Below, piece by piece: positions 25,295-62,035 of a stretch of 64,000 bases of DNA. Where the stretch lies: positions 1,364,001 through 1,428,000 of the forward strand of contig NC_007516.1 in assembly GCF_000012625.1 (NCBI RefSeq), read 5' to 3'. Position numbers and translations under genes: made by a program. Positions within the stretch are counted from its first letter, which is position 1, and each line of letters begins with the position of its first letter. The notes under the pieces were generated by a model. It had not been told where the DNA came from. It searched no databases and saw nothing but the letters and a program-made list of their open reading frames with translations. The DNA is from Synechococcus sp. CC9605 (lineage in GTDB: Bacteria > Cyanobacteriota > Cyanobacteriia > PCC-6307 > Cyanobiaceae).

Positions 25295-25504
25295 ATGGCC
25301 ATCGGAGAGGGCTGGCTGATCGACAGCGACGATTGCTGGATCTGGCGATTCCACCGGGATCAGAAGAGATGGATCAACGAGCCGAAGGTCTTCATCGACA
25401 GAGGCCGTCGACTGCCGGATGGCCCTCCCCTACTGAAGGAACGCCGACATCTGCGAGAGGCCGAAGCAGAACAACTCTGGGCGTCCTTGCAGACCCAGGG
25501 CTGA
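25295..25504 (+). CDS. DUF1651 protein
   Basis: 69 aa from ATG 25295. GEGWLIDSDDCWIWRFHRDQ, then FIDRGRRLPDGPPLLKERRH and EAEQLWASLQ follow the DUF1651 pattern known from marine Synechococcus and Prochlorococcus. Molecular role unknown. The near-perfect LexA box in its leader suggests DNA-damage control. Confidence 0.8.
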   Translation: MAIGEGWLIDSDDCWIWRFHRDQKRWINEPKVFIDRGRRLPDGPPLLKERRHLREAEAEQLWASLQTQG

Positions 25505-60867: not shown

Positions 60868-61212
60868 GTGGGCGACACCAAAAAAAGCCCCGAGGTTTCG
60901 CGTGCGACTGGACCGACCAGCCTGCAGCAGATGGCACGTCCAAGCCTGATTCGACAGGGCTACGACAGAAATGCCCCGGGACGGCCCGAACCACTCAGGG
61001 GCGGCGAAATCAACTTCGAGCGGTCATCTGACCGGTGGTTTCGCCTGAGAAGGACCTGCAGAGCCTCTCAGCTCCGACCAACGGCCTTGGCAAGGGACTG
61101 CTCCATGCGGAGATACAAGGGCAGGAGCTTCGAGGGGACCTGCTTGAGGAACTCACGTTCGGCTTTGACCGTGGCCAACGCATGGATCACTTGTCCCTTC
61201 TGGTCTTCGTAG
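60868..61212 (+). CDS. Hypothetical, first about 58 codons protein-like
   Basis: GTG 60868: GDTKKSPEVSRATGPTSLQQ, MARPSLIRQGYDRNAPGRPE and LRGGEINFERSSD look coding; beyond 61045 the frame is antisense to the next minus-strand gene and loses protein character. The real gene may be shorter through a frameshift or stop change. Confidence 0.35.
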   Translation: MGDTKKSPEVSRATGPTSLQQMARPSLIRQGYDRNAPGRPEPLRGGEINFERSSDRWFRLRRTCRASQLRPTALARDCSMRRYKGRSFEGTCLRNSRSALTVANAWITCPFWSS

Positions 61213-61292
61213 CTGAAGACCTCAAGCCCTGCTGGTGAGACTTCAGCCCCAACCTTGCTCCCGTCCCTGAGTAGAAATCGCGCCACGTTCAT
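61068..61292 (-). CDS. Conserved hypothetical, 74 aa
   Basis: ATG 61292. NVARFLLRDGSKVGAEVSPA then GLEVFSYEDQKGQVIHALAT and EFLKQVPSKLLPLYLRMEQS. Alpha/beta, soluble. Unknown. Confidence 0.6.
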   Translation of the reverse strand: MNVARFLLRDGSKVGAEVSPAGLEVFSYEDQKGQVIHALATVKAEREFLKQVPSKLLPLYLRMEQSLAKAVGRS

Positions 61293-61388: not shown

Positions 61389-61637
61389 TCAGACCCTTGG
61401 AACGATGTGGGTCACAAAATCGGCGTTAACCCAGTTGATAAAGCCGGTGTCGACATCGGCCACTTGGAACAACGTTGGAGTCTTGGGGTTCCTGGCACCG
61501 CCATCGACCCAAATCACATCGGCCATCCGCCAAGCCCCATCCGTGTCAGTGACGATCACGGTCATTCCCGACTTGACATGCAGAAAGACCGGATCCGACT
61601 TAGAGGCCGAAACGCTGCTCCCATAATCAACCGCCAC
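61389..61637 (-). CDS. DUF3104-like protein
   Basis: 82 aa from GTG 61637. HVKSGMTVIVTDTDGAWRMA then DVIWVDGGARNPKTPTLFQV and ADVDTGFINWVNADFVTHIV: the pattern of DUF3104, found mainly in marine Synechococcus. The start codon lies inside a perfect inverted repeat centred on a LexA-like box 13 nt upstream. Confidence 0.75.
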   Translation of the reverse strand: MAVDYGSSVSASKSDPVFLHVKSGMTVIVTDTDGAWRMADVIWVDGGARNPKTPTLFQVADVDTGFINWVNADFVTHIVPRV

Positions 61638-61687
61638 ACCCTTTAAGCTAGTACAGAAGTACTAGCTTAAAGGGTGTGGCGGTTGAT
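61626..61687. repeat. Perfect 29-bp inverted repeat with 4-nt centre, holding a LexA-like box
   Basis: Left arm 61626-61654 and right arm 61659-61687 are exact reverse complements around AGAA. The centre reads AGTACAGAAGTACT, one base off the LexA consensus. The left arm contains the start of the DUF3104 gene, and the right arm is a mirror copy of that same start region with no gene behind it. Confidence 0.95.
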
Positions 61688-61783
61688 GTCATCGCATCGG
61701 TGGTTTGCAGCTCCGCGAGCCCGTTCTGAGCATGGGCCGGGTCTGAGGCCCCGGCCTTGATGTGCCTGTTGCCCTAAGGGTGT

Positions 61784-62035
61784 TCAGAGGACTCCCAGAG
61801 GACCTTTCTTCTTCTTGCAGTAGCCAGCACCAATGTTCACCCAACCTGACAGGCAAGCTTTGCCATTGGTTGGGGCTACTTCGTAATGGATCGGAGAGAC
61901 GCACGTCGTCCCAAGGGTGTTCACGTAACCCAGAGGGCACTGATCATGACCTTCACCCTTGGGGATCTCCTTCTGAGCCAAGGCAGGAAGAGATGTGGAG
62001 GCAAGCAGTAGGCAGCTAGCGAGAAGAGCCTTCAT
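61784..62035 (-). CDS. Small secreted Cys-rich protein, paralogue of 4319..4552
   Basis: 83 aa from ATG 62035. Signal peptide (KALLASCLLLASTSLPALA) then CPLGYVNTLGTTCVSPIHYE and ACLSGWVNIGAGYCKKKKG. Same four-Cys frame as the gene near 4.4 kb, with a longer basic end. Unknown exported role. Confidence 0.75.
   Translation of the reverse strand: MKALLASCLLLASTSLPALAQKEIPKGEGHDQCPLGYVNTLGTTCVSPIHYEVAPTNGKACLSGWVNIGAGYCKKKKGPLGVL

Follow-up and report, generated by a model that had tools for sequence, protein, structure and literature searches.

A Perfect Palindrome at the Putative LexA-Type Operator of a DUF3104 Gene in Synechococcus sp. CC9605, Probably Formed by a Recent Template Switch

Introduction

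In Synechococcus sp. CC9605, a small gene of the Pfam family DUF3104 begins inside one arm of a perfect palindrome that is centred on a LexA-like box. The locus raises the question of how so exact a symmetry came to lie across a promoter, and whether the symmetry itself serves a function. A preliminary description, made from the sequence alone, had offered a recent inverted duplication at the operator, a functional symmetrical operator or cruciform, and a chimeric-read artefact as possible readings. Here, we examined the palindrome within a 64,000-nucleotide stretch of the genome (NC_007516.1, positions 1,364,001 to 1,428,000; hereafter, the window, whose numbering is used for positions given without a genome handle), and compared it with its counterparts in relatives and with similar operators in genomes of the genus.

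Results

Structure and Rarity of the Palindrome

The two exact 29-base arms around AGAA that had been described at 61626-61687 were confirmed in the window sequence; they are 100% complementary and, with the spacer, span 62 bases. The gene-side arm (61626..61654) is the ancestral one and the proposed template; its minus strand carries AAAGGG and the first four codons of DUF3104, beginning with the GTG start. It is followed by the 4-nt spacer AGAA (61655..61658) and by the upstream arm (61659..61687), of which the outer 21 nt (61667-61687), an exact inverted copy of 61626-61646, form the rewritten tract. The right junction, between the upstream arm and the flank, reads AAAGGGTGTGGCGGTTGAT/GTCATCG. 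At the centre of the palindrome lies a putative LexA (SOS) box, AGTACAGAAGTACT (61650..61663), corresponding to the ancestral short inverted repeat and overlapping a putative -10 element, TAGTAC (61659..61664, minus strand), which we propose for the window gene although its own -35 is poor. The gene occupies 61389..61637 on the minus strand, with its GTG start at 61637-61635 in the left arm, and its intact frame encodes an 82-aa protein matching PF11302 (E 1.2e-22). As noted in the preliminary description, the right-hand copy has no matching gene: the mirrored GTG at 61676 on the plus strand opens a frame of 17 codons followed by a stop that ends at 61729, and no gene was recognised there.

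From base composition, about 4e-10 such hairpins are expected in 2.5 Mb, and the next-longest perfect inverted repeats with loops of up to 20 had 13-bp arms in the 464,000 bases scanned (the window and 20 stretches of 20 kb of the same genome); a chance origin of the palindrome is thus excluded. Hairpins with a 4-nt loop and arms of at least 8 bp numbered 13 in these 464 kb, the palindrome included. The GC skew of the sampled stretches flips sign mid-genome, near the window, and the protein starting near base 230 of the contig is presumably DnaN. The palindrome was also flagged by a scan for intrinsic terminators, but its tail, GGTTGATTAT, consists of the arm itself plus the first part of the coding sequence and has no real T run, and this assignment was rejected. 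Separately, a GC-rich inverted repeat (GGCCGGG...CCCGGCC, 61735-61756), mostly kept in the two relatives described below, lies in the gap that separates the palindrome from the end of the next minus-strand frame upstream (61784-62035), and is perhaps a terminator-like hairpin.

DUF3104 is a multi-copy family with seven matches in CC9605, and it is present in 33 of the 34 genus genomes and in none of the 14 control genomes. The predicted model of the protein is a small SH3/Tudor-like beta barrel (pLDDT 74). A fold search with it returned no match at E 0.001, the best being a ribosomal chain (E 3.9e-3) followed by Tudor domains, and the family profile reached only E 0.12 against PDB sequences (SH3 domains). 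We assign the predicted SH3/Tudor-like fold with modest confidence, and it gives no function. Some DUF3104 copies carry in-frame stops (G001:C1:1303384, G029:C41:11494 and G032:C1:380051), which shows paralog decay in the family. Directly after the window gene lies a 74-aa ORF (61068-61292, minus strand) without a Pfam match, and a similar stretch occurs in the same place in one relative (G029, locus L003); the two genes may form an operon.

A LexA-Like Box Upstream of DUF3104 Genes

A pattern search showed that the centre of the palindrome matches RGTACNNNDGTWCB, the consensus given for the cyanobacterial LexA box in PMC3091678. When the 130 nt preceding the DUF3104 domain were scored for their best LexA-like 16-mer, a box of at least 9/12 was found at 66 of the 85 genes examined in the genus, as against 0/187 control windows lying 400-900 nt further upstream, 59/1700 shuffles and 30/3160 windows of the CC9605 genome. 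The 85 genes were drawn from 123 matches; of the other 38, some scored low, some were fragments and some were not fetched, and six exceeded 49 bits. The box is present at four of the seven DUF3104 copies of CC9605, where the consensus occurs at 17 distinct sites, including sites upstream of recA, an S24 peptidase (UmuD-like), a DprA-like gene and three DUF1651 genes. The loose consensus showed no enrichment in this genome (14 + 11 matches versus 28 + 30 for the reversed pattern); the stricter form, AGTACNNNNGTACT, gave 109 matches versus 39 over the 34 genomes. Since the loose consensus is not over-represented genome-wide, the case for LexA rests on position and conservation. The position upstream of DUF3104 across the genus, and the company of recA, the S24 peptidase and DUF1651, support the earlier naming of the box as LexA-like.

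In marine Synechococcus under mitomycin C, recA, lexA and umuC are raised, as reported in PMC3744912; among genes with a predicted LexA box, however, the same source gives only 15/27 and 10/46 as rising in two other marine strains, which, like the lack of enrichment of the loose consensus, speaks against LexA control. From the conserved position of the box, we infer that the DUF3104 gene stands under a LexA-type (SOS) operator that LexA would bind, and that this small gene is probably switched on by DNA damage.

Several other genes lie behind LexA-consensus sites. Three DUF1651 genes of CC9605 begin 6-12 nt past such a site (L105:1526-1774, L106:1527-1775 and L111:1521-1730), the last corresponding to window positions 25295-25504 and having an in-frame stop within. 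Across the genus, 30 of the best-scoring DUF1651 loci were fetched and 28 of them scored, four with a short flank and an assumed offset; 23 of the 28 have a box reaching 9/12 or more within 126 nt upstream. DUF1651 is listed in PMC5490813 among host genes that respond to cyanophage infection. A small Cys-rich family (like MEDWxFVDxRxL..KG..C.TC.HF.Y...C...G.C.LRQ) occurs behind LexA-consensus sites four times in the CC9605 genome (loci L109, L110, L113 and L116; sites G000:C1:1153065, 1157453, 1536271 and 1934461). The three copies tested (L110, L113 and L116) had no Pfam match, and the L116 copy appears degraded. One further site (L104, G000:C1:462874) lies about 50 nt upstream of the DprA-like frame and might connect the SOS response with DNA uptake or recombination. 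These findings suggest that, in marine Synechococcus, DUF3104 and DUF1651 are largely LexA-box genes, which would give these families of unknown role a testable function class.

Comparison with Relatives

Two same-genus genomes contained the locus with both flanks, G003 (91%, 409/411 bases) and G029 (85%, 411), the latter a MAG. Aligned in gene orientation, both read GCTAGTAC-N4-GTACTAGC, with 8-bp perfect arms and non-palindromic outer flanks, whose outer parts pair at 6/20, about as expected by chance. Over the outer upstream positions, the two relatives share 16/20, whereas the window agrees with G003 at 10/20 and with G029 at 11/20. The flanks diverge from G003 by 7%, and at that rate the probability of at least 10 differences in 20 is 2.8e-7. 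The upstream arm of the window matches the reverse complement of its own gene-side arm at 21/21, versus 16/21 for that of each relative. Because the upstream arm agrees completely with its own partner yet at only 10-11 of 20 positions with the relatives, it has been overwritten by the gene-side sequence in inverted form; judged by this alignment, the upstream (right) arm is the new one, over about 20 nt.

We found that 20 nt had been replaced by 21 nt, a net gain of one base, with the flanks in register right after the arm. The gene-side outer 21 nt of the window are 16/21 identical to each of the relatives, and since this divergence of 5/21 exceeds that of the flanks, other changes have also hit the locus. 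At the outer return point, the alignment offers only a short TTGNT-type match; with the outer parts of the relatives pairing at about chance level, the return point rests on this short imperfect match. The arms of the palindrome have so far acquired no difference. Of the recent inverted duplication proposed earlier, the inverted copy, the novelty of one arm as judged from two relatives and the identity of the arms hold, but the sequence was replaced and not added.

Consequences for the Promoter and RNA

In 32 of the 66 DUF3104 promoters with a box, a -35-like element (TTGAC/TTGCC, at least 4/5) precedes the first half of the box by 17 or 18 nt; other adjacent offset pairs gave 0 to 16 (median 5), with the higher values at about 20-24 nt. 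This placement suggests that, in roughly half of these promoters, the putative -10 is overlapped by the box. A Prochlorococcus record (L127) has an equal layout, TTGACG-17 nt-TAGTACAGGTGTACTT. No good -35 was found at 15-19 nt in the window, G003 or G029 (best 3, 2 and 2 of 5, respectively). An extended -10 TG, present in only 7/66 promoters, was discarded as a family feature.

Just upstream of the putative -10, the replacement sequence contains no recognisable -35, and the operator and coding sequence are intact. The gene is thus expected to be still LexA-repressible with an altered promoter strength, although the direction and size of the change are guesswork because the -35 of the relatives is also poor. 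Folded as RNA, the window sequence reached -62.8 kcal/mol (z -10), compared with -40.6 kcal/mol (z -1.7) for G003; a third folded sequence (L003:1599-1704) begins within the box and was left out of this comparison. An mRNA hairpin masking the start codon was considered as the main effect and set aside, as the putative -10 sits in the box. Since this -10 suggests a transcription start within the box, the gene's own mRNA would probably be free of the long hairpin. Read-through RNA from upstream, on the predicted fold, would carry it.

Origin of the Palindrome

With an imperfect repeat in the relatives, an arm replaced by an inverted copy and collinear flanks, the locus has the features of a template-switch mutation. 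We consider it very probable that the palindrome arose by a recent, lineage-specific quasipalindrome template switch, seeded by the LexA-type operator of the DUF3104 gene. In the proposed course, the operator would have begun as the short inverted repeat GCTAGTAC-N4-GTACTAGC, preceded by unrelated sequence and followed by the ribosome-binding site and start. While the DNA was being replicated or repaired, the growing strand would have switched at the operator hairpin, copied the adjoining flank on the gene side, about 21 nt, in inverted orientation, and rejoined its proper template near TTGNT, a short remnant match, so that the arms grew from 8 bp to the 29 bp of the perfect palindrome. In E. 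coli, according to PMC7202029, quasipalindromes gain in perfection when the polymerase copies from the nascent strand, and PMC8794818 describes perfect stems as possible in one template-switch event. Non-cleavable LexA raises template-switch mutation in E. coli according to PMC6357072, which is a parallel and not evidence here. The event is single, and the genomes compared include no intermediate strain.

Selection for the full 62-bp symmetry, whether for tighter LexA regulation, as a cruciform switch or as a bidirectional SOS promoter, would account for a perfect symmetry about the box, for arms free of mutations and for the stability of the predicted RNA fold. However, among the sites examined, such symmetry was seen at this locus alone. 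The stricter AGTACNNNNGTACT pattern, which admitted only A, C or T as its two outermost bases and covered only part of the sites, found 94 sites in 31 of the 34 genomes, 93 with arms of 5-8 bp and one, the palindrome, with 29; the outer pairs at the other 93 averaged 5.7/21, compared with 5.4 expected by chance. After the palindrome, the longest arms at the 66 boxed DUF3104 promoters are the 8 bp of G003 and G029, so that neither set has another perfect arm above 8 bp. The mirrored side holds only the 17-codon frame, and arms without differences are equally expected from a recent event. These data argue against the functional symmetrical operator or cruciform envisaged earlier, and we regard selected symmetry as improbable. 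Still less plausible, to the point of being nearly dismissed, is an ancestral palindrome lost in the relatives, for which we found nothing in favour: the palindrome is likewise absent upstream of the other DUF3104 genes that we examined, and as G003 and G029 agree at 16/20 in the non-palindromic upstream arm, both would need to have changed nearly alike.

A sequencing, cloning or assembly artefact in the form of a fold-back chimera could be suspected because the palindrome is known from one assembly of one isolate. Its junction had no match in viral_contigs, a weak test, as this collection contains little bacterial DNA and may omit near records. However, the genome is a single contig of 2,510,659 bp rated 100% complete, and a fold-back chimera would continue inverted or break collinearity, whereas homology to G003 and G029 resumes in register immediately after the arm; the chimeric-read artefact raised earlier is therefore highly unlikely. 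REP- or MITE-type elements in general resemble the palindrome in length and perfection, which would favour the insertion of a palindromic mobile or dispersed repeat. Against this, a search of the CC9605 genome with the 62 bases found the palindrome alone on both strands (next matches at E 0.07 and 0.25), and the net gain relative to G003 and G029 is no more than one base. Both an inserted element and a fold-back chimera fit poorly with flanks in register and a gain of at most one base, and we give the inserted element hardly any credence.

Hairpin Nucleases

The SbcD model found no match in the CC9605 genome; 13 of the 14 control genomes matched, eight of them over the cut-off. Within the genus, 12 of the 34 genomes had a match, over the cut-off only in G029. 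The SbcD match of G029 (G029:C30:18037-22247) has long SbcC matches beside it; this genome is a MAG, and binning contamination is possible. For SbcC, CC9605 had only a 210-nt match of 20 bits, G029 had two long stretches and G019 one (63 bits), although the cut-off was passed by none of these genus genomes and by only 1 of the 14 controls, so that SbcC absence says little. The ExoI-type Exonuc_X-T_C was absent from all 34 genus genomes, which likewise says little as among the 14 controls it matches only E. coli. ExoVII (xseA/XseA) is present in 30 of the 34 genus genomes, CC9605 included. By the SbcD matches, the hairpin nuclease may be missing from most of the genus, and loss of SbcCD could have aided the origin or persistence of the palindrome. 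For a palindrome of such length, this loss is probably not needed.

Discussion

The template switch proposed here is a known kind of mutation, of which the palindrome would be a clear natural case at a putative SOS-type operator. Because the before-state, in two relatives, and the after-state are both readable at a regulatory site, the effect of a one-step promoter rewrite is directly measurable. Literature searches on LexA with template switching and on LexA-regulon genes, in which subscription journals were thinly covered, found no paper whose title or start of abstract dealt with this combination; DUF3104 and DUF1651 were each named in one paper.

A broader proposal would be that SOS operators holding LexA act as natural template-switch seeds, allowing one-step rewriting of DNA-damage promoters in hairpin-nuclease-poor marine Synechococcus. 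If true, promoters would have a way to evolve that is linked to replication stress, in which a gene's own start region is copied upstream. We consider this generalisation unlikely. A generic hairpin could have served as well, given the 13 hairpins with 4-nt loops in 464 kb. A recurrent hotspot at LexA boxes was also considered and rejected, as only one event was seen among the 94 sites.

The palindrome can be compared with three known systems. In the E. coli lacZ quasipalindrome reporters, as described in PMC7202029, a short imperfect repeat is likewise perfected by arm copying, with clustered one-step changes. In contrast to these reporters, the present case is a natural event in a marine cyanobacterium with a conserved operator as the seed, and about 21 nt beyond the 8-bp core were converted where the relatives have scarcely any arm homology. 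The template-switch RNA hairpins of PMC8794818 are similar in that a perfect reverse-complement stem arises in a single event revealed by ancestral sequences. The cases given there are RNA genes, whereas here the site is a bacterial operator whose gene probably yields a transcript without the hairpin. As for the cyanobacterial LexA box presented in PMC3091678, it is, like the box here, a 14-bp pseudo-palindrome near SOS genes, and it is also found before recA in CC9605; at the present locus, it stands at a Pfam family of unknown function and has been extended on both sides to 62 bp.
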